A DNA stretch of 64,000 nt from Tubulanus polymorphus (taxonomy: Eukaryota; Nemertea; Palaeonemertea; Tubulaniformes; Tubulanidae), in NCBI RefSeq assembly GCF_964204645.1, contig NC_134032.1, forward strand, positions 5,947,175 through 6,011,174. Reading direction: 5' to 3'. Shown here in pieces: positions 33,151-63,650 of the stretch; position 1 is the stretch's first letter, and each line of letters starts with the position of its first letter. The notes beneath the pieces were generated by a model, which worked only from the letters and a program-made list of their open reading frames with translations, did no database searches and was not told where the DNA came from. The position numbers and the translations under genes are program-made.

Positions 33151-33850
33151 TCCAAACTACGACGACTTGAATTTCACTAGGAGTTAGATTTCGTTACAAA
33201 AAAATTTCTATTCTACATTCTCAATGCGTTGTGCAGTTTTTACTTTGATAACGAATAAGTTAGAAGAAACGTTGAGCTAATTGAAATAAGTGCCTTTGCA
33301 CGAGGGTAAGGCAGTTATACCGTCATTACTCTATAGCCGTGAGGCATATTTTATTAAATTCTAGAACAAGAAAGAACCACGCTTGGTTGTGTATTCGTTT
33401 GTTCTCTTCGGGTATTTCTGCATTTGAAAACGTGATTAAACACAGAAGACCCTTACGCACTTTTTTAAAGAATGTACAAAATATATGGTGTATCAGATAG
33501 GTGGGTGTAGAAAACTTTCTTGTTTCACACCAATGTGAGTTAGGTGGAAAAAAAACACATTGAAACCCAATTTTCGCAAAACTTTTCTTTCTGAAGATAC
33601 TGTGCATGCTGTTTCATTTTACGCATTCGATTTCTATATCATAGAGAATTGATCTCTATATTAAAAGGATCTGACGTGTTCTAACAGATTGGCAAATTTC
33701 TTTTAGCATTCTCAATGCGTTTTAAGTCATAATTGAAATGAGAGGGATTTTACAAACGAAAAGGATTAGGTGGAAAAATGTAATAACAATAATCAAGGAG
33801 GTTTCTGAATTGGCAGGAAACCCTTATGATAGACTCAATATTAACAATGG
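33151..33850. other. Non-coding, presumably 5' flank or intron of the neuropeptide gene
   Basis: It ends in the splice acceptor at 33871, so at least its right part is probably the 5'-UTR intron. No upstream exon can be identified from sequence alone. Minus-strand frames at 33326-33607 and 33750-34190 are chance frames. Confidence 0.45.
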
Positions 33851-33871
33851 TTTTTTCGTTTAATTTTTCAG
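33851..33871 (+). promoter_or_regulatory. 3' splice acceptor of the 5'-UTR intron
   Basis: A pyrimidine-rich tract with long T runs is followed by CAG (33869-33871). The first in-frame ATG of the neuropeptide (33874) follows two bases later. This implies that the short in-frame extension upstream (from 33826) is intronic and that the coding sequence starts at the very beginning of an exon. Confidence 0.75.
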
Positions 33872-33873
33872 GT

Positions 33874-34263
33874 ATGTATAGCAAAAACAGAGTGCTTACT
33901 TCACTGACAGCTGCCGCATGCATTTTACTGATGTGTCTCGTCTCGGGCGAATCGAAGCCCGTCGCCGGGGAATTCTTCGAGTTGCTACCCCCGGAATTCA
34001 AAGCCGGCTCGTCTGGGAATGGTCCGTCTCCGGACTTGTACCGCCAGGTGGCGCTTCTAGCTAAAGTCCTATTGAACGACAACAAACTGCGGAAGTCGAA
34101 TAACGATGACGTAAAACGGTCAGACGGTAGTTTATCAATTGTCGGTTCGCTAGATGCCTTGGCGGACATGATTTCAGCGCAAGAAGCCAAGAAACTGCAA
34201 AATCAGTTAAAAGCAAACAAAATGAGATTGATGAGATTGGGCAAGCGAAACATCGGCGAGTAG
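33874..34263 (+). CDS. DH44 / CRF / egg-laying-hormone-type neuropeptide precursor
   Basis: A 129-residue secreted precursor of a neuroendocrine peptide hormone. Residues 1-25 are a signal peptide (a basic start, then the hydrophobic LTAAACILLMCLV core, with cleavage likely after VSG). Residues 26-80 are an acidic/neutral spacer. Lys-Arg at 81-82 releases a 40-residue peptide (83-122), followed by Gly123 (C-terminal amide donor), Lys-Arg at 124-125 and a four-residue tail NIGE. The peptide begins SDGSLSIV and ends KANKMRLMRL-amide; SLSIV near the N-terminus and KANK near the C-terminus, with an amphipathic helix between, are features I know from insect DH44, and the layout also fits molluscan egg-laying hormone and vertebrate CRF. 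Such peptides act on class-B GPCRs. The start was chosen because an acceptor lies two bases upstream; a single coding exon after a 5'-UTR intron also matches CRF genes. There are no frameshifts. The exact family name (DH44 versus ELH) is inferred. Confidence 0.88.
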   Translation: MYSKNRVLTSLTAAACILLMCLVSGESKPVAGEFFELLPPEFKAGSSGNGPSPDLYRQVALLAKVLLNDNKLRKSNNDDVKRSDGSLSIVGSLDALADMISAQEAKKLQNQLKANKMRLMRLGKRNIGE

Positions 34264-34532: not shown

Positions 34533-34538
34533 AATAAA
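34533..34538 (+). terminator. Candidate poly(A) signal of the neuropeptide gene
   Basis: AATAAA lies 270 bases after the stop codon, in AT-rich DNA, and is the first canonical hexamer I see downstream on this strand. A MITE begins about 110 bases further on, so the transcript probably ends before it. Confidence 0.5.
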
Positions 34539-34644: not shown

Positions 34645-34882
34645 AACCGCGTTCACACTGGTGCTAAATGGGTACTTGCCAAATTTGGGCTACAAGCCCC
34701 TGCAAATGATTGTATGTGTATATTTTCTGGTTCTGGAAGTGACTTACCTCACTTTCCACGGCGTCGTTTAGATAGCGTTCAGCATCGAGTGAGCGATATG
34801 CGTGTGTACGCGCAATTTATTTTGATTTGGCTCGGGTCTGATCCAGACCCGAGCCAAATCACGTCTCCGCGCGATTGCGGCT
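34645..34882. mobile_element. MITE, 'GTTCACAC/GATCACAC' family, diverged copy
   Basis: The left end AACCGCGTTCACACTGG and the right end CCGCGCGATTGCGGCT form diverged terminal inverted repeats. The interior has GCTCGGGTCTGATCC followed by AGACCCGAGCCAAATC, a near-perfect palindrome, and AGCATCGAGTGAGCG shared with other copies. It sits just downstream of the neuropeptide gene. Confidence 0.65.
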
Positions 34883-52965: not shown

Positions 52966-53000
52966 TGTCGTGACTCGCAGAAGAGAGCGCTGCAAAAGGT

Positions 53001-53666
53001 ATGTCCACCTTACTTACCTTACATCATAAATTCGGTAAACTCGAAGAAATTGAGCGAGATCTTGTCAGTGAGTGTACGTTAAAGGGCGCAGCTTTGAGCG
53101 AATTCGTTTCAGCCGGAGACGATGAATTGAATGATAAATTGACAGATATCAATTTTCTCGAATTTGCGTTTAACGAGCTTTTGTCGAAAAATAGGTCCGA
53201 TTCGAACAATGCGGCAACCCATCAAAGGTCGAGAATTTCGTTGCCAAAATTGCAATTACCGAAATTTAGTGGCGATATCCTAGAATGGTCGCCCTTCTGG
53301 GATTTGTTCGAATCTACAGTCGACAACCAACATTCGCTGAGTGACGTCGAAAAGTTCGGTCATCTGAAATGCCATTTAGGCGGTGACGCAAGGCTCGTTA
53401 TTGAAGGTCTGCCTTTAACTTCCGTTAATTATGTTAAAGCTAAACAACTCTTGAAGGATAGATTTGGCGTTTCTCATAAGATAAGCGAGGCCAATTTGAA
53501 CCAACTAGTTGATTTAGAACCTCCAGTCTACAGTTTAAATTCGTTGCGTCGTTTTTATGATAATTTAGAGCTGCATATCCGAAGTCTTGAATCTTTGAAG
53601 GTCGGGGCCGAGTCCTATGGTACACTTCTAGTTCCTATTACCATGAATAAATTGCCCGTGAGGTAA
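53001..53666 (+). pseudogene. gag: BEL/Pao Gag, N-terminal part
   Basis: A 221-codon frame. Residues 81-91 (LPKLQLPKFSG) followed by W96, FWDLFES and LKCHLGGDARLVIEGLPLT are the hallmark of the BEL/Pao Gag core (DUF1759-like). The start, 20 bp after the putative LTR word, is plausible. The frame ends early after NKLPVR with a stop, and homologous Gag continues in another phase at 53708. Gag forms the capsid-like particle that packages element RNA. The frameshift means this copy cannot make full Gag. Confidence 0.8.
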
Positions 53667-53707
53667 AGCGGAACATTGCGCGTGCGAATGGGAGTTGCGA
53701 ATTTGAA

Positions 53708-54255
53708 TTGTCTGTGTTACGTTCTGCGATATTAGATGAAATTAATATTCTCGAGTTCTGCGATACGTCATCAGCCGGAACGATGACGTCACTTCTCGTC
53801 GACAATAATACCGCAAAGAATGTGCATGATTATAATCGTGTGAAGTTTAAATGTCGTTTTTGTCAGTCGAATGACCATTACCCACGGCTTGTGGGCTATA
53901 CGTTGAACCGCAGGCTAGGCTGAATTTTGTTTTACGAAACAAGTTATGTTTCAATTGTCTTGGTGCTCATAGAATGAATAAATGTTCGTCAAAGGGTTCA
54001 TGTAGAGTTTGTAACAAACGACATCATACTAGTATTCATGGGGCGGAATTTCCGGGGCAGTTGAAAGTTCAAGTTCATTCTGTTAATTCGAAAGCTGGGC
54101 CCTCACATCCACCGGTAGCTAAAACTCCACGTGAATTACAACATGGTAAAACGTCTAATAACGTTTCTAATTCAGATTCAGGGTCTTCAGATAAGGCTGG
54201 CATTGATGATCCACCGCCGCCAGTTTCTGAATTTAATCATCTTTCCGTGGTTTAG
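53708..54255 (+). pseudogene. gag: BEL/Pao Gag C-terminal zinc-knuckle region, frameshifted
   Basis: Two frames, 53708-53923 and 53974-54255, in different phases. The first ends with FKCRFCQSNDHYP, a Cys-x2-Cys-x4-His knuckle; the second carries KGSCRVCNKRHHTSIH, a Cys-x2-Cys-x3-His-x4-His knuckle of the type seen before the BEL protease, followed by a Ser/Pro/Asp-rich linker. These knuckles bind nucleic acid. A deletion or frameshift lies between 53923 and 53974. Confidence 0.7.
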
Positions 54256-54569
54256 GGTGGTGTTTCCTCTACTATATATCTGAAGACTGCTGTAGCACCG
54301 GTGGAGAGTGAAGGTACTCACATCGTACTTTCGTTACGTCGGCATTAGTTCGCCAGCTAGGTGTTAAACCTCATAGATTTGAATCCGTTGATTTGAGTGG
54401 GTTCGGTGCTGTCAGTACTGGGTCTAGAGTAGTTGACGTCGTGTGGATCAGTATTACGTGTACTGTTGATAAATCAGTTGTTTCTGTAGAAGCTATCGTT
54501 GTATCGGAGATAACCAGACCACTCAGAGTTTCTAACAGTTCAGTTAATTGCATACCTGAATTTTAAGGT
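54256..54569 (+). pseudogene. BEL/Pao aspartic protease remnant
   Basis: Reading shifts through ALVRQLGV and then a beta-rich segment ending NCIPEF. In this family ALVRQLG follows the active-site loop D-S/E-G. Here only a SEGT remnant with no Asp is visible, and a frameshift lies immediately after it, so the protease that would cut the polyprotein is dead. A stop (TAA) lies at 54564-54566. Confidence 0.6.
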
Positions 54570-55499
54570 TTGAATTTTGCCCATCCGCCGGGGTACAGTT
54601 CTAGTTCCTTTGATATCTCATTACTCATTGGATCTGATTATTACTACCTTTTTGTTCTTGGTAATCAGTTCATTAAATCTGCATGTGGCCCGGTTGCTGT
54701 TCCGTCGAAATTGGGTCATTTAATTGCGGGTCGGTATAACGGTGATGACTTAACCAATTCTGTTCAATTGTCTATAATTGCTGAACCTGACACTTTCGAT
54801 CTCAGACGTTTCTGGTCTCTAGAAACGTTGGGTATAGAGTCACCTACTGACCGAGATACATATTTTCTGGATGAGTTCTGTAGTAAGTCTATCATGTTAG
54901 TAGACGGGAGATACAGGGTTAATTTGCCTTGGAAAGATAATCACGGCATACTACCCACAAATTATAATGTTTCCAAAGCCAGAACTCGCTCTACGGTTCG
55001 CCGCATCGCTAAAACCGAAGGTTTGTTGGAGAAATATAGTGCTGTAATTACTGATCAATTGTCACGTGGGTTTATTGAGCCTGTTGAAATTCCCTCCGTT
55101 TCTAGCACTCGTGAGCATTATATTCCTCATCACCCGGTTTTCAGGCAGTCATCTACTACTCCGATTCGTATTGTTTTCGATTGCAGCTGTCGACAGTCGA
55201 AGTCTTCCGTATCTCTTAATGACTGCCTGGAAGCTGGGTCACCGTTGCTGAACGATATTACTTCTATTTTGATGCGTTTCCGTTTGTTCAATTATGGGAT
55301 TGCCACCGATATCGAGAAAGCATTCTTGCAGATTGAATTAAGTCCTGATGATCGTGATTCAACCAGATTTTTTTGGTTGAGTGACTCTAGCGATCCGGAG
55401 AGCGAGTTTACTATATATAGATTCAAGCGTATCTTGTTCGGGGCTACATGTTCACCCTTTTTATTGAATAGTTGCATTATAAACCATGAGAAATCATGA
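54570..55499 (+). pseudogene. pol: BEL/Pao reverse transcriptase, N-terminal two-thirds
   Basis: A 309-codon frame. Residues 15-90 are the protease-to-RT linker (LLIGSDYY, FWSLETLGI). RT motifs follow: LPWK (119-122), HHPVFR (187-192), RIVFDCS (200-206), TDIEKAFLQIEL with catalytic Asp247, and FKRILFGATCSPFLLN (285-300). The frame stops after NHEKS, and the second catalytic motif, YVDN, is read in another phase at 55534-55545, so a small indel separates the two halves of the active site. The start Met is arbitrary because it is polyprotein internal. Confidence 0.85.
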
Positions 55500-57251
55500 G
55501 AGTGAACTTTCTCAACAACTTCTGAGAGACATATATGTTGATAACATTGTATCTAGTGTTCCTACTGAGTCAGATGCTTTGCGTTTTTTCCACGGTTCTA
55601 GACAAGCTTCTCGGAAGTCAATTTGAATTTACGTTGTTGGTCCTCTCACTCGAAAGAGCTCCAAAAGTTTGCTACTGATCATGGGTATATAGAAAGCTCT
55701 ACTGTCGTGAATATTTTTGGTATCAGTTGGGATGTTGAAAAGGATGAATTGTCTTATGTTCCCAAAGTTTTATCATCTGTTTATCCATGCACAAAACGCC
55801 TTGTCCTACAGAGAGCTGCAACAGTTTATGATCCACTAGGTCTCCTAGCTCCAGTTACGATTCGAACTAAAATGCTATTGCAGGATATTTGGAAGCAAAA
55901 CTTTGACTGGGATGAACCCTTGTCCGTAGAGTTTCGAACTAAATGGCAAACTATACTTGTTGATATTCGTGAGAGTTTAGAGTTGAGTTTCCCTCGTATT
56001 GTAAATTGTCATTTACTGGACGGTACAGATTCACCCGTTGAGTTACATGTTACATGTTTTGTGACAGCAGTATCTCCGCTTATGGAGCCGTTGTTTATAT
56101 CCGTTGTGGAAATGAATCAAGTAATTTTGATTGCAAAAGCTAGGGTCGCACCTGTCAAGGAACTCACGGTTCCTAAACTTGAACTTATGGCCGCGTTAAT
56201 TGGTTCGCGATTGATTAAACATGCTTATGATTCTATATCTGTTGTTATTGATTTACCTGTTGGACTCTTTGCGTGGTCCGACAGTCAAATTGTACTTGGC
56301 TGGCTTTGTTCGAACAAGAAGTTGTCTGCTTTTGTTTCTAACCGTGTAAAAGAGATCAAGTCTCTCGTATCAGTTGAAAACTGGCATTATTGTCCTACAG
56401 CTTTCAACTCGGCTGATTTGTTAACAAGAGGTGGTTCAGTTCAAAATTTGAAGTCCGATTTGTGGCTCCATGGTCCGGATTGGTTGGTCAACGATTTATT
56501 TCGTCCTACTCTTGTTGACACGTCAGCGTTGTTACATTCTGATGTAATTAATGATGATTCTATTCATACGAATCCTATCATAGATGTTCCTGGTTCTATT
56601 GATCAAGTGATCAACATTGATGATTACTCGTCTTTGATTGTATTGTTGAGAGTTACGGCTTATGTCCGTCGTTTTATATTTAACCTGAAGTGTCGTGGTG
56701 ATGGACGCGTCACGCATCAACTTCATGCTTCTGAAATCGACGAAGCGGAATGTTTGTGGATTAAACGGCTGCAAGATGTATCGTATCATGACGTGAAAAC
56801 TAACCTTCTTAATGGTTCGAAGAAACGTTGTTCATTAATCGGTCAACTCCATGTGTTCCTTGATGAAAGGGGTATAATTCGTTGTAAGGGACGCATTCAA
56901 AATTCTTCGTTACCTTCTGATATGAAATGTCCTATTCTTATTCCAAAACATTCTCGCTTAGCCGATTTGATAGCACATGACGCACATTTGAGAGTATTTC
57001 ACCTCGGTGTTCCTGCAACGGTCGCTAAGATTAGAGAAAGGTATTGGATAATACAAATTCGTCAGTTCATTAAGTCTCATGTGCGACGTTGCGTGACATG
57101 CCAAAGGTTACAATCTTTGTCATATCGACGGCCTGATTCTCCTGCGTTACCAGAATTCAGGGTGTCTGAACTACCAGCATTTAGTTATACGGGACTGGAT
57201 TACTGTGGTCCTTTTATTGTTAAGGGCAATGTGAAATGTTGGGTTTGTTAA
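55500..57251 (+). pseudogene. pol: BEL/Pao RT end, RNase H and integrase zinc-binding domain
   Basis: 55500-55622 carries YVDN in one phase. From 55623 a 542-codon frame has the RT tail (YDPLGLLAPVTIRTK, FDWDEPL), RNase H (KLELMAALIGSRL, FAWSDSQIVLGWL), and the HHCC zinc-binding part of integrase (His452/455/460 and Cys490/Cys493), then the first integrase Asp in GLDYCGPF (Asp526). Between about 56046 and 56140 the RNase H stretch that should hold the first catalytic Asp is readable only in another phase, so two compensating indels flank it. A TAA at 57249-57251 ends the frame; the same frame resumes right after it. Confidence 0.85.
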
Positions 57252-58205
57252 TTCACATGCGCGGTTTCGCGCGCTGTGCACATTGAACTTGTTTATAGTA
57301 ATTCTACCGAAGATTTTCTTCTCTCTTTCAGACGTTTCACAGAAAGACGCTCCATACCAAGGCTTCTAATTTCTGACAATCAAACTGCTTTTATTGGAGC
57401 GAACGCTGAACTACGGCGAATTTATCGCGACACCAAAGTACACAATTTTCTTTCTCGGAAAAACGTCGATTGGAAGTTCATAGTGAAACGCGGACCTTGG
57501 TATGGAGGCTTCTGGGAACGGCTGATTGGGCTTACGAAGAGTAGTTTGATGAAGGTACTCGGTAGAACGTCTGTAACTGGTGTCGAGTTGTACACGGTAT
57601 TGTGTGAGATAGAAGCTTGTCTCAATGATCGACCGTTAGTTTACGTATCCAGTGATCTGGAGTCTGAGTCACTGACTCCTTCCCATTTGATGTGGGGACG
57701 ACGCATCACCGCATTGTCAAAATTATGCCCGATCGATAATTTGGAGGATGATGCCGAGTTTGGAAATGATGGGTCAGTCCTAGCCAAAAGGTACTTGCAT
57801 TTAAACAGGCTTCTTGATCATTTTTGGTTGCGTTGGCGCAAGGAGTACTTAACGAACCTTAGAGAATATCATAGGTTTACAGGGGACAATCGTGAGATTG
57901 CTAAACCTGGCTCTGTTGTCATCATACATGATGAAAACGTCCCTCGACTAAGGTGGAAATTAGGAATAATTCAGAAATTGCACAGGGGTAGTGATGGTTT
58001 AGTAAGATCCGCCACTGTCAAAACCGCTACTGGTGTAACTAGTAGGCCCATTTCAAGGTTATATCCACTTGAGATTGATACCACCATTGAAGAGAACAAA
58101 GCTTGTTCAGATCCGGTTGACACAGATCAAGTAGCTTCTAGACCTGTCCGTAGAGCTGCAGAGTTAGCTAAACTTAAGATCAATCAGTATTTTGCTAATA
58201 ATTGA
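57252..58205 (+). pseudogene. pol: BEL/Pao integrase catalytic core and C-terminal domain
   Basis: Same frame as 55623-57251, separated by one nonsense codon. From the Met at 57276, SDNQTAF holds the second catalytic Asp (Asp34) and GGFWERLIGL the Glu (Glu81), so with Asp526 of the upstream part the D-D-E triad is complete. LNDRPLVYV and LTPSHLMWGR (residues about 117-150) and the later LDHFWLRWRKEYL...REYHRF, VVIIHDEN...RLRWKLGII and SRPISRLYPLE are the DUF5641-type C-terminus. Integrase would insert the element DNA. This is the best conserved part of the element. Confidence 0.88.
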
Positions 58206-60812: not shown

Positions 60813-60927
60813 TATATCAGATTAATCGACTTATAGGCGAAAGATAGGCTATATCAGACTAATAGGCGAAAGCATAAGTCTTTATTACGTTATTAATTGG
60901 CCTAATTATTCAAAAGCTAATAATGTA

Positions 60928-63650
60928 GGCGACAAAACCAAAAAAATTAATTGTCGCGGGCGATAAAACCAAAATAATCAATTGTCGCGGGCGATAAAAC
61001 CAAAATAATAAATTGTCGCAGACGATAAAACCAAAATAATGAATTGTCGCAGGCGATAAAACCAAAATATTGAAGTGTCGCAGGCGATAAAACCGTGACA
61101 AAAAGAAGAAAAAAAATTGTCGCGGGCGATAAAACCAAAATAATGAATTGTCGCGGGCGATAAAACCAAAATATTGAATTGTCGTGGGTGACAAAACCAA
61201 AATATTGTTTTGTCGCGGTGATAAAACCAAATTAATGAATTGTCGCGGGCGATAAAACCAAAATAATGAATTGTCGCGGGCGATAAAACCAAAATAATGA
61301 ATTGTCGCTGGCGATAAAACCAAAATATTGAATTGTCGCGGGCTACAAATCCAAAATCATGAATTGTCGCGGGCGACAAAAACAAAATATTCAATTGCCG
61401 CAGGCGACAAAACCAAACTAATGAATTGTCGTGGGCGATAAAACCAAAATAATGAATTGTCGCAGGCGATAAAACCAAGATATTGAAGTGTCGCAGGCGA
61501 CAAAACCGCGACAAAAAGAAAAAAAAATTGTCGCGGGCGATAAAACCAAAATAATGAATTGTCGCGGGCGATAAAACCAAAATATTGAATTGTCGTGGGC
61601 GACAAATCCAAAAAATGAATTGTCGCGGGCGATAAAACCAAAATCTTGAATTGTCGCTATTGTCGCGTGCGACAAAACCAAAATAATGAATTGTCGCGGG
61701 CGATAAAACCAAAATATTGAATTGTCGTGGGCGACAAAACCAAAATATTGTTTTGTCGCGGGTGATAAAACCAAATTAATGAATTGTCCTGGGCGATAAA
61801 ACCAAAATAATGAATTGTCGCGGGCGATAAAACCAAAATATTGAATTGTCGTGGGCGACAAAACCAAAATATTGTTTTGTCGCGGGTGACAAAACCAAAT
61901 TAATGAATTGTCGCGGGCGATAAAACCAAAATAATGAATTGTCGCTGACGATAAAACCAAAAAAATGAATTGTCGCGGGCGATAAAACCAAAATAATAAA
62001 TTGTCGCAGACGATAAAACCAAAAAAATGAATTTTCGCGGGCGATAAAACCAAAATCATGAATTGTCGCGGGCGAAAAAAACAAAATATTCAATTGTCGC
62101 GGGCGACAAAACCAAACTAATGATTTGTCGCGGGCGATAAAACCAAAATAATGAATTGTCGCAGGCGATAAAACCAAAATATTGAAGTGTCGCAGGCGAT
62201 TAAACCGTGACAAAAAGAAAAAAAAATTGTTGCGGGCGATAAAACCAAAATAATGAATTGTCGCGGGCGATAAAACCAAAATATTGAATTGTCGTGGGCG
62301 ACAAATCCAAAAAATGAATTGTCGCGGGCGATAAAACCAAAATCTTGAATTGTCGCTATTGTCGCGTGCGACAAAACCAAAATAATGAATTGTCGCGGGC
62401 GATAAAACCAAAATAATGAATTGTCGCGGGCGATAAAACCAAAATATTGAATTGTCGTGGGCGACAAAACCAAAATATTGTTTTGTCGCGGTGATAAAAC
62501 CAAATTAATGAATTGTCGCGGGCGATAAAACCAAAATAATGAATTGTCGCGGGCGATAAAACCAAAATATTGAATTGTCGTGGGCGACAAAACCAAAATA
62601 TTGTTTTGTCGCGGGTGACAAAACCAAATTAATGAATTGTCGCGGGCGATAAAACCAAAATAATGAATTGTCGCGGGCGATAAAACCAAAATAATGAATT
62701 GTCGCTGGCGATAAAACCAAAATATTGAATTGTCGCGGGCGACAAATCCAAAATCATGAATTGTCGCGGGCGACAAAAACAAAATATTCAATTGTCGCGG
62801 GCGACAAAACCAAACTAATGAATTGTCGCGGGCGATAAAACCAAAATAATGAATTGTCGCAGGCGATAAAACCAAAATATTGAAGTGTCGCAGGCGATAA
62901 AACCGCGACAAAAAGAAAAAAAAAATTGTCGCGGGCGATAAAACCAAAATAATGAATTGTCGCGGGCGATAAAACCAAAATATTGAATTGTCGTGGGCGA
63001 CAAATCCAAAAAATGAATTGTCGCGGGCGATAAAACCAAAATCTTGAATTGTCGCTATTGTCGCGTGCGACAAAACCAAAATAATGAATTGTCGCGGGCG
63101 ATAAAACCAAAATAATGAATTGTCGCGGGCGATAAAACCAAAATATTGAATTGTCGTGGGCGACAAAACCAAAATATTGTTTTGTCGCGGGTGATAAAAC
63201 CAAATTAATGAATTGTCCCGGGCGATAAAACCAAAATAATGAATTGTCGCGGGCGATAAAACCAAAATATTGAATTGTCGTGGGCGACAAAACCAAAATA
63301 TTGTTTTGTCGCGGGTGACAAAACCAAATTAATGAATTGTCGCGGGCGATAAAACCAAAATAATGAATTGTCGCGGGCGATAAAACCAAAATAATGAATT
63401 GTCGCTGGCGATAAAACCAAAATGTTGAATTGTCGCGGGCGACAAATCCAAAAGATGAATTGTCGCGGCAGAAAAACCAAAATCTTGAATTGTCGCGGGT
63501 GACAAAACCAAATTAATGAATTGTCGCGGGCGATAAAACCAAAATAATGAATTGTCGCGGGCGATAAAACCAAAATAATGAATTGTCGCGGGCGACAAAA
63601 CCAAAATTATTGATTTGTCGCGTTATTTTAGTTTTGTCGTTTTGTCATAA
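60928..63650. repeat. 31-bp satellite array with 699-bp higher-order repeat
   Basis: About 86 head-to-tail units of 31 bp, each AATTGTCGCGGGCGATAAAA followed by CCAAAATAATG or CCAAAATATTG. Variants (GTCGTGGGCGAC, TTTTGTCGCGGGTGA, AAATCCAAAA) recur in fixed order. A marker junction, TTGTCGCTATTGTCGCG, occurs at 61651, 62350 and 63049, exactly 699 bp apart, and a GACAAAAAGAAAAAAAA insert at about 61508, 62210 and 62909, with a shorter-spaced one at 61101. Because 31 is not a multiple of three and the minus strand of the unit has no stop in any frame, long minus-strand frames (up to 382 codons) arise without being genes. Confidence 0.92.

Follow-up and report, generated by a model that had tools for sequence, protein, structure and literature searches.

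The 64,000-nucleotide stretch of DNA analyzed here (the window) very probably contains a neuropeptide gene of a lophotrochozoan that belongs to the DH44/ELH/CRF family and is present as a single copy. CRF is the vertebrate stress hormone, and DH44 and ELH are its invertebrate cousins. The reading frame, its cleavage-site motifs and its sequence similarity to this family are present, and the same genome holds exons of a CRF-type receptor and of a CRF-binding protein.

A precursor of 129 amino acids is encoded at positions 33874-34263 of the plus strand and reads from ATG to TAG without interruption. The first-pass annotation had described a complete precursor; indeed, the start, the KR site, the 40-residue peptide, the GKR site and the four-residue tail were all located, and a signal-peptide-like N terminus was judged by eye only. 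The features are as follows:

33859..33871, + strand: candidate splice acceptor TTTAATTTTTCAG (consensus only)
33874..34263, + strand: precursor coding region, 129 amino acids plus stop; single genome match
33874..33951, + strand: signal-peptide-like N terminus of about 26 residues with the hydrophobic core LTAAACILLMCLV (by eye)
33952..34113, + strand: spacer (propeptide; frame translation)
34114..34119, + strand: KR (residues 81-82), dibasic cleavage site preceding the peptide (sequence)
34120..34239, + strand: predicted mature peptide of 40 residues (83-122), DH44/ELH/CRF type (Pfam, shuffle and ORF-background tests, predicted helix)
34240..34248, + strand: Gly 123 (amide donor) and KR cleavage site 124-125 (sequence)
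34249..34260, + strand: C-terminal tail NIGE, residues 126-129 (frame translation)
34533..34538, + strand: AATAAA, possible polyadenylation signal 270 bases past the stop (consensus only)

The candidate acceptor ends at 33871, two bases 5' of the ATG; if it is used, the entire coding region would be one exon. Without splicing the frame is open from 33793, with two further in-frame ATGs upstream at 33826 and 33847. Peptides of the family are expected to have roughly 36-46 residues, a dibasic site on either side and a Gly ahead of the second one; here, 40 residues were found from KR to GKR. An internal KK at precursor residues 106-107 lies inside this peptide and is presumed to be left uncut. 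The GC content of the frame is 0.49 and its GC3 is 0.58, as compared to 0.33 and 0.37 for the 500-base flanks. As background we used 4462 six-frame ORF pieces of at least 25 amino acids from the window and loci L002-L035; locus L001 was omitted because it repeats the window gene. The window precursor holds the sole KR-X30-48-GKR unit among these pieces.

Additional features were observed elsewhere in the window. An inverted repeat, GATTTGGCTCGGGTCTG, lies at 34824-34860, about 560 bases past the stop; it is perfect over 17 bases and has a loop of 3 bases. An Rfam search of the window at the gathering threshold gave no match, this repeat included. The frames at 52974-58205 (+) are split into several pieces and resemble a retroelement, judged by eye to be of the BEL/Pao type, and a tandem repeat at 60910-63606 gives, also by eye, long open frames of repetitive sequence on the minus strand. 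A scan for sigma-70 promoters and terminators was run on the window as well and is irrelevant to an animal gene.

The peptide plus GKR, a query of 43 residues, was compared with the 24736 models of the Pfam library, and families were reported up to E=10. Three were reported, namely ELH (E=0.0083), CRF (E=0.023; under its cut-off and covering peptide residues 4-34) and a TPR model (E=0.13). ELH reached 16 bits against a curated cut-off of 20 and CRF 15.2 against 22.1, and the TPR model was likewise under its cut-off; these cut-offs are thresholds of the models and no biological feature. With the whole precursor as query ELH alone was reported (E=0.017). Furthermore, a family profile was built from eight DH44/ELH/CRF reference peptides with the window peptide excluded. 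It ranked the window frame first among the 4462 ORF pieces with E=0.0017, the runner-up having E=0.53. The first-pass annotation had proposed a profile search of residues 83-122; in the Pfam comparison ELH and CRF came first, both under their cut-offs. A phmmer search of the PDB with the whole precursor returned no family match; two fibritin matches (E 0.71) were dismissed as chance.

Pairwise comparison was carried out with the eight reference peptides, two of them from gastropods (Aplysia ELH and Lymnaea CDCH). None of 2000 shuffles matched the local-alignment score obtained with Locusta DH (Z 8.2, the highest of the eight), Lymnaea CDCH (6.9), Aplysia ELH (6.7) or Drosophila DH44 (5.8). Results were weak or null for Manduca DH41 (137 of 2000 shuffles reached the score), Tenebrio DH37 (76), CRF (88) and urocortin (543). 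Therefore, the window peptide resembles some insect DH44s and gastropod ELH, and its direct similarity to vertebrate CRF and urocortin is weak, if there is any. Identity to the eight reference peptides ranges from 17 to 37%.

The peptide begins with SDGSLSIV; SLSIV occupies peptide positions 4-8 and KANK positions 31-34. An SLSIV start and an amidation signal are shared with Locusta and Drosophila DH44, and KANK is found in Locusta DH too. Between these conserved ends the middle of the Locusta and Drosophila peptides is four residues longer, and an LRQRLLLE-type middle, a feature of insect DH44, is missing from the window peptide. Aplysia ELH can be aligned without gaps from SI to the amide, with 10 of 35 residues identical over the 35-residue core. 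From lophotrochozoan DH44 and gastropod ELH, for which Aplysia ELH and Lymnaea CDCH were the sequences compared, the window peptide differs by its insect-like SLSIV start and by KANK near its end.

AlphaFold2, run on the single sequence, predicted one helix spanning residues 7-39 with a mean pLDDT of 90.5. The predicted structure thus has the layout of the family, in which a long helix comes after an extended N terminus. No excess hydrophobic moment was found at 100 degrees over 32 residues, where 2563 of 5000 shuffles reached the value of the peptide and amphipathicity was not evident. This test, run on the window peptide alone, is crude because one angle across a long helix averages out.

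The genome searched (G000) comprises 267.8 Mb in 77 contigs. Searches with the precursor and with the peptide gave one match each, in both cases the window gene. The single copy presumed in the first-pass annotation is borne out at this level of sensitivity, at which distant paralogs could be missed. Using the Pfam CRF model, five candidates were scored over the genome and no match was returned; this run is silent on paralogs because it missed the window gene itself.

In the search for class B receptors 150 of the 177 candidates were scored, which gave at least 103 matches to 7tm_2 with E no higher than 0.001. Of these, 39 lie in twenty stretches that were retrieved because they had the appearance of multi-exon genes; the remaining 64 are for the most part long frames of a single exon and were not included. 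Two receptor genes were picked by eye from the 39 matches for homology search. One of them, a CRF-type receptor, has all its exons on the same strand at G000:C10:11331185-11337324. Its two 7TM exons (C10:11333276 and 11337184) scored 92.2 bits with CRF receptor 1 as compared to 55.6 bits with the calcitonin receptor, the best non-CRF match. The two ectodomain exons (C10:11331185 and C10:11331562) scored 59.3 bits with CRF receptor 2, against 35.1 bits for the glucagon receptor as their best non-CRF match. The hormone-receptor domain was matched at C10:11331185 with E=4.4e-7, 2 kb upstream of the first 7TM exon. The other gene picked (L033) was not taken as the CRF receptor; calcitonin receptors came first with 43.9 bits versus 39.5 bits for CRF receptors. 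Additionally, a CRF-binding-protein (CRF-BP) exon was identified at C12:1589911 (E=2.4e-9), and a second CRF-BP match at C1:20777076 remained under the cut-off (E 0.19). A CRF-type receptor and CRF-BP exons are thus found here as in the vertebrate CRF system.

Several observations were made on these gene groups. Contig C10 carries 12 of the 28 hormone-receptor-domain matches, and class B1 hormone receptor genes seem to be concentrated on it. Dozens of single-exon frames with a class B 7TM domain, mostly of about 700-950 residues, are often clustered on C4, C6 and C9 (e.g. C4:21996872-22022454 and C9:3590651-5191731); apparently, they constitute a large intronless receptor expansion. Short repeated motifs in the introns of the CRF-BP gene (L014), CTAGGTGGCAGCAC and CACTAGTGACACCTGGTGGA among them, resemble a CTCF core motif. 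A scan with four motif strings matched L014 three times and L026 and L035 once each; the window and the other loci examined had no match.

A frame arisen by chance, in which the dibasic sites would be accidental and a helical stretch would merely look like DH44/ELH, might be expected to yield Pfam scores under the curated cut-offs, as were obtained here. However, it would also have to account for the only KR-X30-48-GKR unit and the first rank among 4462 pieces, for GC and GC3 values distinct from those of the flanks, and for CRF-type receptor and CRF-BP exons that are independently present in the genome; we consider it highly improbable. That the frame is instead a decayed copy of a DH44/ELH gene deserves almost no credence: frame and processing sites are intact, the codon-position contrast in GC is kept, and the genome searches with precursor and peptide gave no other match, while the genome keeps a CRF-type receptor.

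The gene could also encode a real secreted helical peptide of another family which has converged on DH44/ELH, the true DH44 being located elsewhere in the genome. An identity of just 17-37% to the reference peptides is in line with this, and so is the insensitivity of short-peptide family searches, the genome-wide CRF run having missed even the window gene. On the other hand, the peptide matches at both ends, has the length of ELH and carries the C-terminal Gly, and neither the precursor nor the peptide as query revealed a second genomic match. Such convergence is very unlikely in our view. We thus retain the reading as a DH44/ELH/CRF gene, in agreement with the first-pass annotation: Pfam ranks ELH and CRF highest, though under their cut-offs, and a CRF-type receptor exists in the genome.

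The lineage was examined by a homeodomain search, in which 22 matches had an E of 1e-10 or lower. Ten of these form one run at C6:5318228-5634747, all on the plus strand; loci were extracted and inspected for 14 of the 22, the ten-gene run corresponding to L037-L045 and L048. Judged by eye, we take the ten homeodomains to be, in order, Post2, Lox2, Lox4, Antp, Lox5, Scr, Dfd, Hox3, pb and lab. The homeodomain of the Lox5-type gene is followed by KLNGP, presumably close to the Lox5 parapeptide. The presence of Lox2, Lox4, Lox5 and Post2 types points to Lophotrochozoa, and the protostome origin previously regarded as probable is supported by these genes, whose types were named by eye. The run is compact, apparently collinear and on one strand, and ParaHox-like Cdx and Gsx types (L046 and L047) lie 20 kb apart on C5. 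Models for arthropod cuticle, annelid linker and molluscan haemocyanin gave no genome match; these searches do not show absence because the controls were silent as well. A COX1 search of the genome also gave no match, while controls matched in 8 bacterial or archaeal genomes; hence, the mitochondrial contig is probably absent from the contigs searched.

ELH, DH44 and CRF are handled as one family in the excerpt of PMC3890597, and that of PMC6425005 describes ELH, DH44 and CRH as homologous, with ELH in the narrow sense confined to gastropods. The latter excerpt lists a single motif for the nemertean Tubulanus polymorphus, Drosophila and Bombyx; one peptide per precursor is thus common to this nemertean and the window gene. 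In contrast, 13 and 16 copies are described for Platynereis (PMC3890597, excerpt; compared by description). According to the excerpt of PMC8557429, DH44/ELH precursors were detected among nemerteans, brachiopods and phoronids solely in nemerteans, and DH44/ELH of Lineus longissimus is backed by mass spectrometry. The strings SLSIVG, SLSIVGSLDALADMI and LDALADMI had no occurrence in the literature main texts searched, a scope that leaves out figures and supplements. The first-pass annotation had suggested that the motif mix of the peptide may help link DH44 and ELH. DH44-like ends combined with an ELH-like length are real in the alignment with the reference peptides, but the linking role is out of date, as PMC3890597 and PMC6425005 already unite the family in print, and the window gene adds one member. 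If the phylum is one lacking reported DH44/ELH, such as brachiopods or phoronids, the gene would be the first record in its phylum and near the ancestral lophotrochozoan form, which we regard as rather unlikely.

In this family, the standard route leads from secretion through cleavage at KR and GKR and then amidation to action on a receptor. From the sequence we infer that the window gene is transcribed and that its peptide is processed, amidated and paired with a receptor along this route. The signal peptide would take the precursor into the secretory pathway, where prohormone convertases would cleave it at KR and GKR; after trimming of the basic residues by a carboxypeptidase, the Gly left at the end would be converted to a C-terminal amide, and the product would be a helical peptide of 40 residues. 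The most likely target of this peptide is the C10 receptor of CRF type (class B1), probably with signalling via Gs/cAMP, and the CRF-binding protein is a possible extracellular buffer. Members of the family serve osmoregulation or stress in insects and vertebrates and egg laying in gastropods; by analogy, we infer that the window peptide may function in water balance, stress or reproduction.

The published view of ELH, DH44 and CRF as one family is unchanged by the window gene, which provides one more data point on the origin of gastropod ELH from a DH44-type ancestor. A clean single-copy ligand gene is present here together with a likely receptor and a binding protein in a compact lophotrochozoan genome; thus, ligand-receptor testing would be simple in this organism.
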